A DNA stretch of 64,000 nt from Phycomyces nitens (Eukaryota > Mucoromycota > Mucoromycetes > Mucorales > Phycomycetaceae). The notes under the pieces are model-generated. The model was not told the DNA's origin and made no database searches. It was given only the letters and a program-made list of their open reading frames with translations. The DNA is taken from assembly GCA_022702545.1 (NCBI GenBank), contig JAHRBC010000002.1:4898001-4962000 (forward strand), read 5' to 3'. The number at the start of each line of letters is the position of its first letter. Positions within the stretch are counted from its first letter, which is position 1. Shown here one piece after another: positions 54,007 through 64,000 of this stretch. The position numbers and the translations under genes are program-made.

Positions 54007-54038
54007 AAAATTAAGCACAACAAAAATGTAAAATATGT

Positions 54039-54120
54039 CGTCGACTGCAGGATTTGAACCTACGCGGGCAGAGCCCATGTGATTTCTAGTCACACTCCTT
54101 AACCACTCGGACAAATCGAC
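54039..54120 (-). tRNA. tRNA-Ser(AGA)
   Basis: The 82-nt minus-strand sequence folds as a class II tRNA. Acceptor GTCGATT pairs with AGTCGAC (one G-T). The D region carries a box A (GTCCGAGTGGTTAAGG). Anticodon stem TGTGA/TCACA with loop CTAGAAA gives anticodon AGA. A long variable arm GGGCTCTGCCC marks it as Ser, and T arm GTAGG-TTCAAAT-CCTGC carries box B. Discriminator G. No intron. It decodes UCU (and UCC with inosine). The first 15 nt (54106-54120) are repeated after each downstream LINE, so this gene is the insertion target. Confidence 0.97.
54106..54120. repeat. 15-bp LINE target site, tRNA copy
   Basis: CTCGGACAAATCGAC, the reverse complement of tRNA nt 1-15. Repeated exactly at 58845-58859 (after LINE-a) and 63584-63598 (after LINE-b). 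Confidence 0.95.
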
Positions 54121-54345
54121 ACGGCTCTTTCGCTTAAGGATTTTTTTACCCCAAAAAATTTCCTTTTATAGTAATTTTACCGAACTTTCCATCCATCCTA
54201 ACCAACACTGCCAACAACTACGCATCCATCGCCTACCACGCCCCATCCCGCCTCCGTAGCAAGTTTTCCATTAAGCTTACCAGTCCAAGCACCCACTGTC
54301 CAAGTTTCAGCCCAAACGAACGACATTTATTTTCCCCGATTCCCG

Positions 54346-55227
54346 ATGTCATCTTCAATGATGCCCCCAATCCCAGGCGCATCAAATGAGCTCATGTCTT
54401 TTTTGGCCTCCATGTTGACCCGCCTTGACAACACTGAGAAGCTTGCTGTCCAAGTGAAGGCTCTTGAAGCCGAGAACAACCGCCTCCAAGCAGAATTGGC
54501 GGACACCCGAAAACGTCTTGAGCAGGCTACGACCTCTCAAACCTCCCTTCCCCTGGGCAATAGCCCAAATGTTTCAACCTCCGACCCCGCCCCAAATCCC
54601 AGTTCCCAGGAACCAGGATTGGAAGCCTCCACTTGGGCTGCCAAGGCCAGCGTCAACCGCCCCCCTCCTGCCCGTAAGGGTCCTTCCCCACGCCGAGTTG
54701 CTGCTTCTCAGCGTATTTTCACTGCGGCCTCTGGCCCCCTTGGATATAAATACGTTTATATTCCTCGCTCCCGTCGCCTTACCCACAGGGAAGTGCGTAG
54801 CTCCCTCCGCACCCTTGGTATTGACACTGCTCGTCTGTTGGACATTAATTTCCCTGCTCGTGGAGTTGTTGGCATACTGGTCCACCTCCAGTTCATTGAC
54901 GAATTTGAGGCACAACTCAATAGAGCCAAGGTGGAGATCATTGGTGACTTTGATCCCGTTGACCCACAACACTTGGCAGACCCCAAGTACCACGATCTCC
55001 CTCTGGACGAGCGGGCAAATACTGCCATTCAAGTACAGAATGCGCGTTGTCTCCAGACCCTCAAGTTCCTCCGCCCCCATGTTGCCCTCCCAGTTGCCCA
55101 CTTCTTTGTTGAAGAAGGGTGGATTAGCTCTGATGAGGTGCCTCCCCGTTCTGCTCTTGGTGGGGATGCTGAACAACTGTTTAAGAGAAAGCGCACTCTC
55201 GATCCAAGCAGCCTCATGGAAGAATGA
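54346..55227 (+). CDS. LINE-a ORF1, 293-aa RNA-binding-type protein
   Basis: Intact. Residues about 20-65 form a coiled coil (LDNTEKLAVQVKALEAENNR...). A Pro/Ser-rich linker and a basic stretch (ARKGPSPRRVAASQ) follow. Residues about 125-190 have YKYVYIPRSRRLTHREV ... GILVHLQFIDEFEAQL, which could be an RRM-like fold as in LINE ORF1 proteins (inference only). Ends FKRKRTLDPSSLMEE. The stop TGA overlaps the ORF2 start as ATGA. Confidence 0.85.
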   Translation: MSSSMMPPIPGASNELMSFLASMLTRLDNTEKLAVQVKALEAENNRLQAELADTRKRLEQATTSQTSLPLGNSPNVSTSDPAPNPSSQEPGLEASTWAAKASVNRPPPARKGPSPRRVAASQRIFTAASGPLGYKYVYIPRSRRLTHREVRSSLRTLGIDTARLLDINFPARGVVGILVHLQFIDEFEAQLNRAKVEIIGDFDPVDPQHLADPKYHDLPLDERANTAIQVQNARCLQTLKFLRPHVALPVAHFFVEEGWISSDEVPPRSALGGDAEQLFKRKRTLDPSSLMEE

Positions 55228-58200
55228 GTGAGCTTTCTATAGGATTATGGAACGCCAATGGGCTTCAACCCCGTGCCATAAACGACGTGCTCAACCACTG
55301 TCAGTCCCTCCATATGCTCTTCATCACAGAAACATGGCTCCTGTCACCTGCGCGTATTCTCACATCATGGTCCCAATTTCATTTGTACGGACCCCCTGTT
55401 GCTGGGACATACCGTGGGTCAATGGGAGTTTCATTGTTAGTCTCCCCTTCCTGTCCTTACACCGTCACCCAAATCCCTATGCCCAACAACTATGCCCTCG
55501 CCGTCAAGATTGGCACCCTTCGATTGGTTTGTGTTTACCTCCCCCCCTCTATGTCCACTGCCGATGCCCTTTCTGTTCTCTCTGACATTCCTTTGACTGA
55601 AGACACCCTCCTTTGTGGGGACTTCAATGCCCGTTTGGGTTCCATCACTGGAGATTATGCCACAAATTCTCGCGGCCTAGCACTTAGTGCATGGCTAGAA
55701 GAAAGATCCCTCACTGTCCTTAATGGCTCACTCTCTCCTTGCACCCCCACCTACATTTCCTTTCGCCGTGAAGTCGAAATTAGCAGTATCATTGACCTAT
55801 TCATCACCAACACCAATTTCGCCAATCCCTCTCTCCACATTCAAACCGAACTCTCCCTAGGCTCTGACCACCGACTTCTTTCACTTTCCTTCACCTATGA
55901 CCTTGACCCTTCCCCTCCATCTCCACCCCCTCTCCGCCGACTCTGGAACCTCTCACGCCTCAAGGAACCAGACGTCCTTCAACTCTACACCGATTCCCTC
56001 ATCCTCAACGCCACACCCCTCCTCAACACCTTGCAAGACATTGTACAAAACCCGCCCTCCTCTCCTCCCCATTGATGCCCTTACTAACGATTTCAACACA
56101 CTCATTTATGATTCTCTTAGTAGTTCAATAGGTACCCGCCCTCACCGCCCATCCAAATGGAAGAAATTCTGGACCCCTGCCCTTCAAGCGGCAGCCGACC
56201 ATCGTGATGGTTGTTACAAGCAATGGCGTCGTGCTTGTGGCATTGACAAGATCAATTGGTGGAGCCGGCACCAACATGCACATCAGGAGTTCCGTCAACA
56301 AGTCCAGACAGCAAAACGTCAATCCTGGCACGCCTTCTGTAGGTCTCTGGAACGTGACTTTGCCAAGGCCACTTCCAAGATCAAACAGATCAAAAGGCGT
56401 CGACAACCCAAACATGTCTTCCAACATGACGATGGCCCAGCTGCTGCAGCAACCATCATGTGCAACCACCTTGCTTCGGTGTATAGTGGCCACATCCTTC
56501 CTTCCTCCCGCCCTCCTCCTCCTCCATCAACCTCTCCTCACCTGCCTTTCGCCGCTGTTGACTCCCCATTTGATTCGTCAGTGGTGGAAGAATACATGCG
56601 ATTTATGCCTAGCCGCAAGGCGCCGGGTCCTGACCATATCCGTGCAGAAATGCTTAAGCCCGTTCGGTCCAAACTCTCTCCTCTCCTTGCCCTGCTCTTC
56701 ACTCTGTGTTGGCAGTGGTCTTATGTCCCCTCTCTCTGGCGCCAAGCCCAAGTTTTCCCAATCTTCAAGAAGGGTAACCCAAACGACGCTGCCAATTATC
56801 GGCCAATCTCTCTCACTTCTGTTCTTCGGAAATTACTTGAGATGTGTATTGCGCCTGATCTCACCAAGTTCTCTCCTCCCTTGGACGTAGCACAAGGTGG
56901 ATTTCGCCCCGACGTGGAGCACTGGACCAGGCCCTCTGCTTGCATGACCTTGTCAAAGCCCACTACCGCCGCCACAACCGCTACCCTGTAGTCGCCTTCC
57001 TTGACATCAAGGCAGCTTATGACACCGTAGACCGACGTGTCATTTGGGATGCTCTTGTCCGCCGTCAAACTCCCCTGCCCTCGTTGGCCTCCTTGTCAAC
57101 ATGTTTGACGAAGTCTCCATCTCTGTCCTTCTTGGCAACTTCTCCTCCCATTCCTTCTCTCCTTCCACAGGTGTACTGCAAGGCTCAGTCCTCAGTCCCC
57201 ACTTATACTCTATCTACATCAACTCCCTGCCGCCTCTCCTTCGCACAGTTGCTCTGTCTACATCCGCCGCCCATGTCCCATCGTCCTCTCCCTCCTCGTT
57301 GGATTCCTATCGCGCCCTTTTGGATCCTTCAGGTGTGGATGACTTTGGCGATTCCACCTCTCCCACGCCGATTAACTCTCTTCTCTTTGCTGACGACGTT
57401 GCCATTTTTGGTTCCGTTCCTGACGTTCAGAAAATGTTGGATCTGGCCGCAGCCCACTCTCTGGAACTCGGTTACCGTTGGAGTCCATCCAAATGTGCAT
57501 TTGTGTACCAAAACTCCCGCTCCCACTCTCCTCCCTCCCTCTCCCTGTATGGTGAGTTACTCCCTGCAGTGGATGAGTTTATCTACCTTGGCATGCCGTT
57601 CCGGAGTAAGGGAATTCATTCCCCTCCATTGTAACCCATCGTCGAGCTGGTACCCTTGCTGCCATGGCCACAATGCACGCCGTTGGTGCCTGCCGTTCTG
57701 GTTTCTCTCTGCTCTTGAGCTCTCGGTTATACCGAACGTTCATCCGTCCCAAGTTCGAGTATGGCCTGGCCATTGCCCCACTCCTAGAAAAGGATTTCAA
57801 GGCCTTGGAACTGATACAAGATAAGTGTCTTCGCATGATAGTTGGGGGCATGCCACGTCCTCCACTATTGTGTTGAAGCACATCTGTAATATACCCAGCA
57901 TGAGATTCCGCAAGGATATCCTTGTTACCAAGTTCTGCCTTCGGGCCCGTACCCTTCCTTCCCGCTGTCTCCTTTCTCTCCTCCACCAACACCACCGTTC
58001 CCATTCCTCCCTTGTCCCGCTGAGCCACCATCCATTCCTTCTCGATATGCCAGTTTCCCTCAACGTACGTAGCATCAACGCCGTACAAAATACCTTGACT
58101 CCCGTCGAGTGTCCCTTTTCGCCACCTTCCTCTCCAACACCACCCAAGTCTTGATCCAAGCATGTCGCCCTGACCTTGGGGTTGACCCAATCCTGTTCCT

Positions 58201-58546
58201 CCCTGCTTCCCGAGTAGAACGTGGTCGCCTTGTTCGTTGGCGAATGGGTTGGCTACCCGGAAACCCTCGTTCATGTGCATGTGAGACAGACCACACCTCT
58301 CGCCGTCATCTCGCCATCTGCCCTAGGATCCCATCAGAACTCCTTGCTTCCCTCCCAATCCCTCCCTCTCCTGCGAATCATCCCATTGATTTTGCCATCT
58401 CCTCCCTCCCTTCCTCTTCCTCGGCCCCATGTCCGCCATACTGGGTGCCATTGCTCACCATTCTCTGGCACATCGATCAATTGTGCAACCCTGATGGGGA
58501 GTACTCCCACGAGAAGAACCATGGTGCTTTGTGGCATGCTGCTTAG
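55224..58546 (+). pseudogene. LINE-a ORF2: endonuclease and reverse transcriptase, frameshifted
   Basis: The N-terminal APE-type endonuclease is intact to about 56060: GLWNANGLQPR, ITETWLL, LCGDFNARLG, SSIIDLFIT, LGSDHRLLS. RT follows: SRKAPGPDHIRAEML, NPNDAANYRPISLTS, LDVAQGGFRP, AFLDIKAAYDTVDR, LQGSVLSPHLYSIYIN, LLFADDVAIF. The C-terminus carries CACETDHTSRRHLAIC, a zinc knuckle-like CCHC motif. Lesions: short C runs near 56072, 56908, 57071, 57612 and about 57860. Comparison with LINE-b shows most are 1-2 base losses in C tracts, real or sequencing-derived. Confidence 0.9.
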
Positions 58547-58844
58547 CATTTTTTTTTTTATTTTATTTTATTTTATCTTTTTCTAGTTCTTTTCGCACAG
58601 GAAAAGTTGTCTGTCTGTTCTCCTATCTCCTCCCTTCCACTGTTACAACTATTTCACAGCTGCGAAGTGGAGAGTAGGGCTCAGCTTTCATCTTAGTACT
58701 GTTAGCTCACTCCATTTTTCTCTACTTTTTTTTGTCTTCCTTGTGCCCAAGAGACTTTTTTGCTTCCCTTCCAGTAGTTCTCGAGATGCTAAATGGTCTA
58801 TAGACTGCCAGCACTATATCTCTCAATAAAACATAATCTTTAAC

Positions 58845-58859
58845 CTCGGACAAATCGAC
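58845..58859. repeat. 15-bp LINE target site, middle copy
   Basis: CTCGGACAAATCGAC between LINE-a and LINE-b, identical to the tRNA 5' end. Confidence 0.95.
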
Positions 58860-59091
58860 CAACACGCGTCACTCTTTCGCTTAAGGATTTTTTTACCCCA
58901 ACAATTTCCTTTTATAGTAATTTTACCGAACTTTCCATCCATCCTAATCAACACTGCCAACAACTACGCATCCATCGCCTACCACGCCCCATCCCGCCTC
59001 CGTAGCAAGTTTTCCATTAAGCTTACCAGTCCAAGCACCCACTGTCCAAGTTTCAGCCCAAACGAACGACATTTATTTTCCCCGATTCCCG

Positions 59092-59973
59092 ATGTCATCC
59101 TCAATGATGCCCCCAATCCCAGGCGCATCTAATGAACTCATGTCCTTTTTGGCCTCCATGTTGACGCGCCTTGACAACACTGAGAAGCTCGCTGACCAAG
59201 TGAAGGCTCTCGAAGCCGAAAACAGCCGCCTCCAAGCAGAATTGGCGGAAACCCGAAAACGTCTTGAGCAGGCTACGACCTCTCAAACTTCCCTTCCCCT
59301 GGGCAATAGCCCAAATGTTTCAACCTCCGACCATGCCCCAAATCCCAGTTCCCAGGAACCCGGATTGGAAGCCTCTACTTGGGCTGCCAAGGCCAGCGTC
59401 AACCGCCCCCCTCCTGCCCGTAAGGGTCCTTCCCCACGCCGAGTTGCTGCTTCTCAGCGTATTTTCACTGCGGCCTCTGGCCCCCTTGGATATAAATACG
59501 TTTATATTCCTCGCTCCCGTCGCCTCACCCACAGGGAAGTGCGTAGTTCTCTCCGCACCCTTGGAATTGACACTGCTCGTCTGTTGGACATTAATTTCCC
59601 TGCTCGTGGAATTATTGGCATACTTGTCCATCTCCAGTTCGTTGAAGAATTCGAGGCACAACTCGATAGAGCCAAGGTTGAGGTCATTGGTGACTTTGAT
59701 CCCGTTGACCCACAACACTTGGCAGACCCCAAGTACCACGATCTCTCTCTGGACAAGCGGGCAAATGCTGCCATACAAGTGCAGAATGCACGCTGCCTCC
59801 AGACTCTCAAGTTCCTCCGCCCCCATGTTGCCCTCCCAGTTGCCCACTTCTTTGTTGAAGAAGGGTGGATTAGCGCCGATGAGATACCTACCCGTTCTGC
59901 TCTTGATGGTGATGGTGAATCACTGTTTAAGAGAAAGCGCGCATTTGCTCCAAGCAACCTCATGGAAGAATGA
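59092..59973 (+). CDS. LINE-b ORF1, 293 aa
   Basis: Same length and architecture as the LINE-a protein, with scattered substitutions (LADQVKALEAENSR, RGIIGILVHLQFVEEF, KRKRAFAPSNLMEE). Differences are mostly silent or conservative, indicating that ORF1 has been maintained. ATGA overlap with ORF2 is conserved. Confidence 0.85.
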   Translation: MSSSMMPPIPGASNELMSFLASMLTRLDNTEKLADQVKALEAENSRLQAELAETRKRLEQATTSQTSLPLGNSPNVSTSDHAPNPSSQEPGLEASTWAAKASVNRPPPARKGPSPRRVAASQRIFTAASGPLGYKYVYIPRSRRLTHREVRSSLRTLGIDTARLLDINFPARGIIGILVHLQFVEEFEAQLDRAKVEVIGDFDPVDPQHLADPKYHDLSLDKRANAAIQVQNARCLQTLKFLRPHVALPVAHFFVEEGWISADEIPTRSALDGDGESLFKRKRAFAPSNLMEE

Positions 59974-62900
59974 GTGAGCTTTCTATAGGCTTATGGAACA
60001 CCAATGGGCTTCAACCCCGTGCCATAAACGACGTGCTCAACCACTGTCAGTCCCTCCATATGCTCTTCATCACAGAAACATGGCTCCTGTCACCTGCGCG
60101 TATTCTCACATCATGGTCCCAATTTCATTTGTATGGACCCCCTGTTGCTGGGACATACCGTGGGTCGATGGGAGTTTCATTGTTAGTCTCCCTCCTGTCC
60201 TTACACCGTCACCCAAATCCCTATGCCCAACAACTATGCCCTCGCCGTCAAGATTGGCACCCTTCGACTGGTTTGTGTTTACCTCCCCCCCTCTATGTCC
60301 ACTGCCGATGCCCTCTCTGTTCTCTCTGACATTCCTTTGACGGAAGACACCCTCCTTTGTGGGGACTTCAATGCCCGTCTGGGTTCCATCACTGGAGATT
60401 ATGCCACAAATTCTCGCGGCCTAGCACTTAGTGCATGGCTAGAAGAAAGATCCCTCACTGTCCTTAATGGCTCACTCTCTCCTTGCACACCCACCTACAT
60501 TTCCTTTCGCCGTGAAGTCGAAATTAGCAGTATCATTGACCTATTCATCACCAACACCAATTTCGCCAATCCCTCTCTCCACATTCAAACCGAACTCTCC
60601 CTAGGCTCTGACCACCGACTTCTTTCACTTTCCTTCACCTATGACCTTGACCCTTCCCTCCATCTCCACCCCCTCTCCGCCGACTCTGGAACCTCTCACG
60701 CCTCAAGGAACCAGACGTCCTTCAACTCTACACCGATTCCCTCATCCTCAACGCCACACCCCTCCTCAACACCTTGCAAGACATTGTACAGAACCCGCCC
60801 TCCTCTCCTCCCCCCATTGATGCCCTTACTAACGATTTCAACACACTCATTTATGATTCTCTTAGTAGTTCAATAGGTACCCGCCCTCACCGCCCATCCA
60901 AATGGAAGAAATTCTGGACCCCTGCCCTTCAAGCGGCAGCCGACCATCGTGATGGTTGTTACAAGCAATGGCGTCGCGCTTGTGGCATTGACAAGATCAA
61001 TTGGTGGAGCCGGCACCAACATGCACATCAGGAGTTCCGTCAACAAGTCCAGACAGCAAAACGTCAATCCTGGCACGCCTTCTGTAGGTCTCTGGAACGT
61101 GACTTTGCCAAGGCCACTTCCAAGATCAAACAGATCAAACGGCGTCGACAACCCAAACATGTCTTCCAACATGACGATGGCCCAGCTGCTGCAGCAACCA
61201 TCATGTGCAACCACCTTGCTTCGGTGTATAGTGGACACATCCTTCCTTCCTCCCGCCCTCCTCCTCCTCCATCAACCTCTCCTCACCTGCCTTTCGCCGC
61301 TGTTGACTCCCCATTTGATTCGTCAGTGGTGGAAGAATACATACGATTTATGCCTAGCCGCAAGGCGCCGGGCCCTGACCATATCCGTGCAGAAATGCTT
61401 AAGCCCGTTCGGTCCAAACTCTCTCCTCTCCTTGCCCTGCTCTTCACTCTGTGTTGGCAGTGGTCTTATGTCCCCTCTCTCTGGCGCCAAGCCCAAGTTT
61501 TCCCAATCTTCAAGAAGGGTAACCCAAACGACGCTGCCAATTATCGGCCAATCTCTCTCACTTCTGTTCTTCGGAAATTACTTGAGATGTGTATTGCACC
61601 TGATCTCACCAAGTTCTCTCCTCCCTTGGACGTAGCACAAGGTGGATTTCGCCCCTGACGTGGAGCACTGGACCAGGCCCTCTGCTTGCATGACCTTGTC
61701 AAAGCCCACTACCACCGCCACAACCACTACCCTGTAGTCGCCTTCCTTGACATCAAGGCAGCTTATGACACCGTCGACCGACGTGTCATTTGGGATGCTC
61801 TTGTCCGCCGTCAAACTCCCCCTGCCCTCGTTGGCCTCCTTGTCAACATGTTTGACGATGTCTCCATCTCTGTCCTTCTTGGCAACTTCTCCTCCCATTC
61901 CTTCTCTCCTTCCACGGGTGTACTGCAAGGCTCAGTCCTCAGTCCCCACTTATACTCTATCTACATCAACTCCCTGCCGCCTCTCCTTCGCACAGTTGCT
62001 CTGTCTACATCCGCCGCCCATGTCCCATCGTCCTCTCCCTCCTCATTGGATTCCTATCGCGCCCTTTTGGATCCTTCAGGTGTGGATGACTTTGGCGATT
62101 CCACCTCTCCCACGCCAATTAACTCTCTTCTCTTTGCTGACGACGTTGCCATTTTTGGTTCCGTTCCTGACGTTCAGAAAATGTTGGACCTGGCCGCAGC
62201 CCACTCTCTGGAACTCGGTTACCGTTGGAGTCCATCCAAATGTGCATTTGTGTACCAAAACTCCCGCTCCCACTCTCCTCCCTCCCTCTCCCTGTATGGT
62301 GAGCTACTCCCTGCAGTGGATGAGTTTATCTACCTTGGCATGCCATTCCGGAGTAAGGGAATTCATTCCCTCCATTGTAACCCATCGTCGAGCTGGTACC
62401 CTTGCTGCCATGGCCACAATGCACGCCGTTGGTGCCTGCCGTTCTGGTTTCTCTCTGCTCTTGAGCTCTCGGTTATACCGAACGTTCATCCGTCCCAAGT
62501 TCGAGTATGGCCTGGCCATTGCCCCACTCCTAGAAAAGGATTTCAAGGCCTTGGAACTGATACAAGATAAGTGTCTTCGCATGATAGTTGGGGGCATGCC
62601 ACGTCCTCCACTATTGTGTTGAAGCACATCTGTAATATACCCAGCATGAGATTCCGCAAGGATATCCTTGTTACCAAGTTCTGCCTTCGGGCCCGTACCC
62701 TTCCTTCCCGCTGTCTCCTTTCTCTCCTCCACCAACACCACCGTTCCCATTCCTCCCTTGTCCCGCTGAGCAACCATCCATTCCTTCTCGATATGCCAGT
62801 TTCCCTCAACGTACGTAGCATCAACGCCATACAAAAATACCTTGACTCCTGTCGAGTGTCCCTTTTCGCCACCTTCCTCTCCAACACCACCCAAGTCTTG

Positions 62901-63293
62901 ATCCAAGCATGTCGCCCTGACCTTGGGGTTGACCCAATCCTGTTCCTCCCTGCTTCCCGAGTAGAACGTGGTCGCCTTGTTCGTTGGCGAATGGGTTGGC
63001 TACCCGGAAACCCTCGTTCATGTGCATGTGAGACAGACCACACCTCTCGCCGTCATCTTGCCATCTGCCCTAGGATCCCATCAGAACTCCTTGCTTCCCT
63101 CCCCATCCCTCCCTCTCCTGTGAATCATCCCATTGATTTTGCCATCTCCTCCCTCCCTTCCTCTTCCTCGGCCCCATGTCCGCCATACTGGGTGCCATTG
63201 CTCACCATTCTCTGGCACATCGATCAATTGTGCAACCCTGATGGGGAGTACTCCCACGAGAAGAGCCATGGTGCTTTGTGGCATGCTGCTTAG
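59970..63293 (+). pseudogene. LINE-b ORF2: endonuclease and reverse transcriptase, broken
   Basis: Same domains as LINE-a ORF2. Lesions differ in part: a 2-nt loss near 60192 in the endonuclease, a 1-nt loss near 60656, a TGA in the frame right after QGGFRP (61655-61657, CGA in the expected sequence) and a C-run loss near 62370. The 60774-61658 and 61686-62383 segments are open and carry APGPDHIRAEML and LLFADDVAIF. The zinc motif CACETDHTSRRHLAIC is retained. Confidence 0.88.
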
Positions 63294-63583
63294 CATTTTT
63301 TTTTATTTTATTTTATCCTTTTCTAGTTCTCTTCGCGCAGGAAAAGTTGTCTGTCTGTTCTCCTATCTCCTCCCTTCCACTGTTACAACTATTTCACAGC
63401 TGCGAAGTGGAGAGTAGGGTCCAGCTTTCATCTTAGTACTGTTAGCTCACTACATTTTCTCTACTTTTTTTGTCTTCTTTTTGCTCAAGAGACTTTTTTG
63501 TTTCCCTTCCATTAGTTCTTGAGATGCTATATGGTCTATAGACTGCCAGCAATCATATCTCACAATAAAACATAATATTTAAC

Positions 63584-63598
63584 CTCGGACAAATCGAC
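63584..63598. repeat. 15-bp LINE target site, distal copy
   Basis: CTCGGACAAATCGAC after LINE-b. Beyond it lies the original upstream flank of the tRNA gene. Confidence 0.95.
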
Positions 63599-64000
63599 TT
63601 TTGATGATTGACACGGGTGTTGTAGGATTTCCAGCTTTGCCCACTTCTCTCCATTTCACATGACTTTTCCAAGGTCTTCCCTGCTAGAAAGCGTGACGTA
63701 GCATCCTGATCAACTTGGCAACGTCACCTTTCTCCATTTGCAAGTCACCTTATTTCTCATATCTCCCTTTTCTCCGCACTTCTTTGATTTTCCATATTTG
63801 TCACCCTCGCTCTCATTTCAAATCCCTCCTATCCATTTCCATATTTATCCATTGTACACTATTTTTGTCATCTACCTTCCCTTCCCTTCTCCCCACGTTG
63901 CTGTCTGTGCGCACTTATCTTTCTCTTCATGTTATCTACCTCTTTACACCCTCTCACACATCGGCACTTCATTTTATTCATACCCCTTCATATCTCTATC
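63599..64000. other. Pyrimidine-rich flank, possible promoter
   Basis: No frame or repeat copy. It contains GTGACGTAGC at about 63692 and AACGTCACC at about 63720, CRE/ATF-like cores in opposite orientations, followed by long C/T-rich stretches as often seen upstream of fungal genes. It may be the promoter of a host gene beyond the window, or simply the old tRNA upstream region. Confidence 0.3.

Follow-up and report, generated by a model that had tools for sequence, protein, structure and literature searches.

Several non-long terminal repeat (non-LTR) retrotransposons are specialized in insertion at transfer RNA (tRNA) genes. According to the passages cited here, the dictyostelid elements TRE5, TRE3, NLTR-A and NLTR-B use these genes as safe sites, with TRE insertions lying either ~50 bp upstream of the tRNA or 100 bp downstream (PMC5006619, PMC5911963). 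The target-specific element Dewa from zebrafish occupies the spacer of tRNA-Leu (PMC3706591), and NeSL-1_TV, LIN15_SM and LIN25_SM are specific to the genes of tRNA-Pro, tRNA-Arg and tRNA-Glu, respectively (PMC4640811). Outside this class, several lineages of Dada DNA transposons insert at nucleotides (nt) 8-13 of the tRNA, in box A (PMC8869645, PMC3706591), and Ty3, DGLT-A, Tj1 and the Rhizopus Ty3/gypsy-like elements are retrotransposons adjoining tRNA genes (PMC5911963, PMC5006619, PMC2699053). Here, we describe a long interspersed element (LINE) from the fungus Phycomyces nitens, present in two copies beside a tRNA-Ser(AGA) gene in a window of 64,000 nt (C4:4898001-4962000) of a 49 Mb genome in 11 contigs, where C-numbers designate contigs and L-numbers loci. 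Judging from the junctions, it very probably represents a lineage with an apurinic endonuclease (APE)-type enzyme that inserts into tRNA genes at one fixed position by target-primed reverse transcription, sparing the gene, building arrays with the newest copy innermost and dividing the tRNA targets among its families.

Contrary to the TREs, which land at a distance, the fungal LINE inserts at nt 1 to nt 15 of the tRNA. Almost the same place is used by Dp_NLTR-A, 2-6 bp upstream of nt 1, and the passages of the two sources on the dictyostelid elements describe no duplication of the tRNA's own 5' end (PMC5006619, PMC5911963). Dewa lies in the tRNA-Leu spacer of an animal host, whereas the fungal LINE lies within the gene. 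The Dada site adjoins the putative nick of the fungal LINE, but Dada transposons use a DDE transposase and disrupt the tRNA gene (PMC8869645, PMC3706591).

In the window, the mature tRNA-Ser(AGA) (~54039-54120, as read from the sequence) is followed by LINE-a and LINE-b, which have the same orientation (Table 1) and show 111 differences over 4,710 aligned bases. The first-pass annotation had described two 4,724-bp LINEs followed each by the same 15 bp, identical to tRNA nt 1-15, and reading all three sites of CTCGGACAAATCGAC, the reverse complement of these nucleotides, bore this out. Two details needed revision: LINE-a starts at the base immediately after nt 1, not one base outside the mature tRNA, and the span of LINE-b (58860-63583) holds as such, but its first 12 bp match the 3' end of an LTR element, its own 5' sequence beginning at ~58872. 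Genome-wide, CTCGGACAAATCGAC has 16 exact matches, all of them explained: eight intact tRNA-Ser(AGA) genes and eight copies directly behind LINE 3' ends. Allowing one mismatch adds two sites (L025 and L026), neither a tRNA nor a LINE junction, which is about chance level since the reversed-pattern control gives three.

Table 1. Features of the tRNA-Ser(AGA) locus, in coordinates of the window.
Feature	Position	Strand	Basis
tRNA-Ser(AGA), intact, target	54037..54121	-	ARAGORN
Target 15-mer (tRNA nt 1-15, reverse complement)	54106..54120	+	Sequence reading, genome matches
LINE-a, member of the family A young cluster, 5' end abutting tRNA nt 1	54121..58844	+	
LINE-a open reading frame (ORF) 1, 293 aa	54346..55227	+	ORF list
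LINE-a ORF2 start, APE-type endonuclease	55224..56075	+	Pfam PF14529 2.5e-14, PF03372 8.8e-8
LINE-a ORF2 remainder (reverse transcriptase, C-terminal region), several frame breaks	56076..58546	+	ORF list, reverse transcriptase survey
15-bp target-site duplication behind LINE-a	58845..58859	+	
12-bp LTR-element 3'-end remnant preceding LINE-b	58860..58871	+	
LINE-b, family A, older	58872..63583	+	
LINE-b ORF1, 293 aa	59092..59973	+	ORF list
LINE-b reverse transcriptase core (probe)	61686..62378	+	Pfam RVT_1 7.2e-16; PDB matches R2, L1 ORF2p
15-bp target-site duplication behind LINE-b	63584..63598	+	
LTR element start (TGACAC...), 10 bp past outer 15-mer, continues outside window	63609..64000	+	

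These copies belong to what we call family A, whose members are not set in unrelated flanks: 20 of the 23 intact 3' ends lead, by junction reading, into nt 1-15 of a tRNA, with five tRNA types represented, namely Ser-AGA (8), Ser-TGA (3, plus L028 at two mismatches), Ser-GCT (2), Leu-CAA (5) and Leu-TAG (1). These counts refer to the listed ends, the 3'-end search having scored 40 of 58 candidates; two non-LINE regex matches (L022 and the second in L040) and L055, whose 3' end was not located, were left out. At the other end, twelve family A elements start at an intact tRNA predicted by ARAGORN (L001-L008, L057-L060), with no base between nt 1 and the element in seven of them and with G, CGGCCAAACCACT, GGAC, GGAC and T in the remaining five. 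Including other families, 18 ARAGORN tRNA genes are flanked by a LINE at a distance of 0-13 nt from nt 1, of which 12 face family A, two a B/C-type 5' end (L095, L096) and four family D (L120-L123). Each duplication is of the isotype of its own local tRNA, and the intact tRNA continues on the opposite side. The Leu-CAA 15-mer has 11 exact matches, and the eight inspected comprise three tRNAs with a LINE and five LINE duplications. The tRNA-Trp 15-mer, intended as a negative control, gave four matches, the one inspected being the gene inside L008, so that this control is incomplete. Because the Rfam tRNA search scored 63 of 2,276 candidates, no genome-wide tRNA denominator is given.

A simple course of events very probably accounts for these junctions. 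The endonuclease would nick the tRNA-sense strand after nt 15, in box A, probably as the first of two cuts, and the 3' end freed at nt 15 would prime the copying of the LINE RNA, a short target-like tail of which may anneal to the target. The opposite strand would then be cut 15 bp away, at nt 1, and the resulting 15-bp duplication would leave a complete tRNA gene, in opposite orientation to the LINE, on one side of it and only nt 1-15, as an orphan copy, on the opposite side. Since the rebuilt tRNA is a target again, arrays would grow with the newest copy innermost. The junction sequences thus agree with the nick after nt 15 and the cut at +1 that the first-pass annotation had suggested, both positions being deduced from those junctions. 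The nine target tRNA types all read T7 T8 ... A14 G15 ^ T16, where the caret marks the putative nick, and the tRNA could be found either through this DNA sequence or through RNA polymerase III (Pol III) factors. Junctions, duplication length, isotype match, gene sparing, age order, and truncated and off-target inserts are all read directly from the sequence.

It could be argued that the 15 bp are not a target duplication at all but the LINE's own 3' end, once copied from a tRNA. Nearly all 3' junctions, including the off-target ones, begin with CT (L143 begins with CC), and a few target-like bases may indeed belong to the RNA. However, the 15-mer is a different one at each type of local tRNA and extends into an intact tRNA on the other side, and three off-target copies are flanked on both sides by duplicates of other 15-mers. 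This explanation has next to no chance of being right and is refuted for the bases past the first three.

One junction may record where the element's RNA begins. At L004, inserted at a tRNA-Ser(AGA), the 13 nt preceding the LINE 5' end are nt 1-13 of an antisense tRNA-Leu(TAG). On the simplest reading, the RNA would have begun inside a tRNA-Leu fronting an element like that of L057, and the copy would have landed at tRNA-Ser. A separate observation concerns L113 (C5:5388283), where ACGGCTCTTT, the start of family A, lies upstream of a tRNA-Thr(AGT) and is followed by an LTR element; from this, family A may have used tRNA-Thr too.

The age of the copies was compared over the last ~1.49 kb of the 20 tRNA-associated family A ends, with C10:727 (L028) omitted (rearranged 3' part, 470 mismatches). 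Ten of the 12 tRNA-adjacent copies, together with two second-in-array copies, have no substitutions among them, and this cluster of 12 copies on five contigs suggests recent activity. LINE-a is inside the cluster, with no substitutions relative to copies at other tRNAs on C1, C4, C5, C7 and C9, whereas LINE-b is outside, with 31 substitutions relative to LINE-a and its nearest relative at a different locus. Counts of 26, 25, 31, 35 and 27 substitutions separate five outer copies from the cluster, a sixth being the omitted C10:727. With LINE-a in the young cluster, LINE-b outside it and the outer copies diverged, the proposed order, in which the newest copy adjoins the tRNA and the older ones are pushed outward, holds in the arrays with differing ages, where it can be read.

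These ages also bear on the idea that one insertion was duplicated, in tandem or segmentally, to give the window pair and the arrays at large, to which we give a very slim chance. Array spacing is regular (~4.74 kb), and in two arrays (C5:4026/4021 and C4:8004/8009) adjacent copies show no substitutions over ~1.49 kb, those of the latter both carrying an extra GGAC at the 5' end, so that duplication is possible for these two pairs; moreover, some flanks have repeats in common, a few of them roughly collinear near the tRNA (L002/L007, L003/L008). Nevertheless, the duplications match their own local tRNA isotype each time, and the divergence of LINE-a from LINE-b, against the identity of LINE-a with copies at other tRNA types, rules out, for the window pair, the segmental duplication that the first-pass annotation had named as telling against its own reading.

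Related families extend the target range. The degenerate Ile/Thr 15-mer GCCYNYTTRGCTCAG has 48 genome matches, compared with none for the reversed-pattern control, and the 30 that were fetched comprise 14 tRNA-Ile or tRNA-Thr genes recognized by ARAGORN, 15 sites directly behind the 3' end of a family B or C LINE, and one that is neither. All 15 orphan 15-mers lie upstream of an ARAGORN tRNA of the same type, the distance being 4-27 kb in 14 cases and 65 kb in one, as outward displacement predicts; two of the 15 show one mismatch to that tRNA. Among 15 family C 3' ends at >=94% identity (C7:3511820, which has no 3' end, was left out), 13 are followed by an exact Ile/Thr-type 15-mer, one by a 15-mer with one mismatch and one by its first nine bases only. 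Family D, with ~53% reverse transcriptase identity to family A, targets tRNA-Val(AAC): 9 of 11 3' ends lead to the 15-mer of this tRNA, seven of them exactly and two with one mismatch, the one-mismatch pattern control giving 8 (two short fragments, C9:3622354 and C6:2386731, were not counted). A D element sits at nt 1, or one base off, of four tRNA-Val genes, and one of these copies (L123) is 5'-truncated and joined exactly at nt 1. The Leu, Ile/Thr and Val junctions rule out tRNA-Ser as the sole target. Thus, tRNA-Ser is hit, as first described, but that description was too narrow, the target being the box-A region of many tRNA types, which the families would share out among them: A mainly Ser and Leu, B and C Ile and Thr, and D Val.

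A number of results weigh against such a reading. Two tRNA-Ser(AGA) genes (L009, L013) have no adjoining LINE. Three of the 23 family A 3' ends are off-target (L047, L056, L084), and so are 10 of 18 B-like ends (L050, L137-L145), which lie at non-tRNA sites; L148, one of the eight tRNA-type B-like ends, has a tRNA-like 15-mer with no gene matched to it (the B-like and C search scored 40 of 61 candidates). Of the tRNA-adjacent family A copies, the two outside the young cluster differ from it by 4 (C1:7900) and 27 (C10:700) substitutions. The evidence comes from one genome, and the nicks are deduced from junctions. Family E, a related lineage with ~51-54% reverse transcriptase identity, ends in CTGAATACC(C/T)CTA in the three copies read (L132, L133 and L134, at C1:9449.9k, C4:2116.8k and C1:9421k), one of them with two mismatches. 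Its terminal 15-mer has 39 genome matches at <=1 mismatch (control, 2), often paired in opposite orientation, and marks the terminus of an inverted-repeat element rather than a tRNA; family E has possibly exchanged its tRNA target for the end of a DNA transposon. No tRNA-like flank is visible by eye at either of the two more distant LINEs read, which have A-rich 3' tails.

The off-target copies nevertheless keep part of the pattern. All three of family A have 15-bp duplications starting with CTC (that of L084 could be 16 bp), and nicking behind AG with a stagger of 15 bp therefore looks intrinsic to the enzyme; at L050, the duplication is degenerate. The off-target sites have little in common with the tRNA past the first 2-3 bases. 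The 15-bp target-site duplications and the truncated copies L123, L047 and L056 are hallmarks of a LINE.

Dispersed copies are also what would be expected if insertion were near-random at AG^ sites and the tRNA copies had merely survived selection as harmless ones. There are 13 off-target 3' ends (3 A and 10 B-like), none with a reverse transcriptase match nearby in a genome survey that scored 150 of 194 candidates, and the four copies measured (three A and L050) are 127-254 bp long. Nonetheless, the 12 members of the zero-substitution cluster, identified in a comparison restricted to tRNA-associated ends, are at tRNA genes, and the three off-target A copies, 88-93% identical to LINE-a, fall outside it. 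Because such a young cluster leaves selection little time, we see only a slim chance for this explanation.

A different division of labour would have mainly Pol III factors bring the element to tRNA genes, as for TRE5-A and Ty3, with an endonuclease that has only a weak AG^ preference and a position set by the geometry of the complex. The poor resemblance of the off-target sites to a tRNA would fit this model, and the LTR elements of the same genome also locate tRNA genes, at ~7-11 bp beyond nt 1. Moreover, the ORF1 protein of TRE5-A is reported, in the passages cited, to interact with TFIIIB subunits in vitro (PMC5006619). The tRNA-Ser(CGA) genes would fit it as well, since they have the same TT..AG^T core, yet no LINE was found at the two genes read, which counts against fixed-site targeting of the tRNA sequence. 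On the other side stand the base-exact position over nine tRNA types with this common core and the division of tRNA types among families, the latter not being expected from a general Pol III tether by itself. On balance, we regard this model as unlikely, if far from negligible, and insertion of an APE-type LINE at one fixed position of the tRNA as the better description.

The proteins agree with this assignment. ORF2 of L115 (1106 aa) contains, in one frame, Pfam matches to RVT_1 (2e-23) and Exo_endo_phos_2 (2.2e-11), and the model of its endonuclease (mean predicted local distance difference test score, pLDDT, 88.3) matches the endonucleases of L1 (TM score 0.75), TRAS1 (0.71) and R1 (0.64). 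With a predicted N-terminal endonuclease and a reverse transcriptase in the same ORF, the element has the make-up of an APE-type non-LTR retrotransposon. Since the fold resembles L1, TRAS1 and R1 alike, it does not decide membership of the Tx1/R1 clade, nor does the reverse transcriptase profile, closest among solved structures to L1 ORF2p, fix the LINE clade. No RNase H match appears in L115 ORF2 in Pfam up to E 1, whereas NLTR-A and NLTR-B carry an RNase H domain after the reverse transcriptase (PMC5006619, PMC5911963). Likewise, its three Pfam matches include no restriction-like domain, the type of endonuclease found in the NeSL lineage; of the NeSL-type elements, those other than NeSL-1_TV have planarian hosts, and each has one named isotype, while the fungal lineage uses an N-terminal APE-type enzyme and several isotypes (PMC4640811).

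The ORF1 model of LINE-a, of low confidence (mean pLDDT 69.5), predicts a long N-terminal helix followed by a beta-alpha-beta-beta-alpha region, with no fold match at E <= 0.001. Its closest relatives are in Phycomyces nitens (75% identity over 81%; 94% over 48%) and P. blakesleeanus, and the organisms named among the best 120 of 153 ORF2 relatives are Phycomyces, Mucor, Rhizopus, Umbelopsis, Cokeromyces, Circinella and Dichotomocladium. In a search for a conserved 3' RNA hairpin, folding was better than that of shuffles at the ends of families D (z -3.3) and E (z -2.0), but not convincingly so at those of A (z -0.3) and C (z -1.1), and we therefore draw nothing from this feature. The 3' part of the family A ORF2 contains a homopolymer of two lengths, and in young copies, L039 excepted, its length mostly follows the contig strand, which suggests that a sequencing artefact lies behind at least some of the broken frames.

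The arrays are not built by LINEs alone. The ordered LINE array of the first-pass annotation stands as far as the order goes, but LTR retrotransposons are interleaved in such arrays, starting ~7-11 bp beyond nt 1. Several LTR families occur at this distance upstream of either nt 1 of a tRNA or an orphaned nt 1-15 (window position 63609 on, L011, L012, L015, L017, L022, L085, L086, L089, L100, L112 and others). The interleaved elements have TGACAC...CGTCA ends, a 4-bp duplication that fits at two C1 loci and not cleanly at a third on C9, and a primer-binding-site-like TGGAGGTCGTGCC... behind the LTR. They look like a Ty3-like targeting system alternating with the LINEs, and Ty3-type elements, in the sources cited, insert upstream of the gene rather than within it (PMC5911963, PMC5006619, PMC2699053).

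Three further observations concern tRNA genes or tRNA matches elsewhere in the genome. On the tRNA 3' side, L002, L003, L007, L008 and L059 have repeats in common (for example, L002/L007/L059 are 97-99% identical over ~270-320 bp), and a second element may target the region downstream of tRNAs. The Rfam search also gave same-score tRNA matches ~4-41 kb from the contig end, with lengths known for some contigs, at 12 places on nine contigs (C1:9938416, C4:4394, C4:8928401, C5:22648, C5:8031694, C6:6554068, C7:5287, C8:19014, C8:3718469, C9:13199, C10:2199162 and C11:28724), as if they were part of a subtelomeric repeat. Matches on C2 are spaced ~72 kb apart, and the assembly could here contain a mitochondrial genome in repeated form.

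LINEs that target tRNA genes are already known in other organisms (the TRE and NLTR-A elements of Dictyostelium, Dewa and the NeSL-type families). Dewa reportedly goes back to Kojima and Fujiwara in 2004, and the host of NeSL-1_TV is, from its name, presumably Trichomonas. Among the titles and abstracts listed by a search, with Repbase reports and most subscription papers outside its range, there was no fungal LINE inserting within tRNA genes. What appears to be new is that a fungal lineage of the APE type cuts at a single fixed point, spares the gene through its duplications and splits into families by tRNA type.

More tentatively, and with a chance that we would put slightly below even, the 5' arm of the tRNA may be a reusable docking site, where one architecture, a nick after nt 15 and a cut at nt 1, has been retuned in each family, once towards a DNA-transposon-like terminus, with the AG^ nick kept. 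As the tRNA would be rebuilt at every insertion, its upstream flank would be a dated insertion record, and the single Leu-to-Ser 5' carry-over suggests that the antisense side of the tRNA may serve as the promoter of the next LINE transcript. For the biology of these elements, the lineage would offer a natural example of an APE-type LINE whose RNA-templated insertion into a multicopy essential gene is exact to the base and spares the gene. Changes of target specificity in LINE endonucleases become directly testable by comparing the enzymes of families A, C, D and E on DNA substrates of defined sequence, and from the ordered arrays one can read how LINE and LTR insertions have competed for shared sites.

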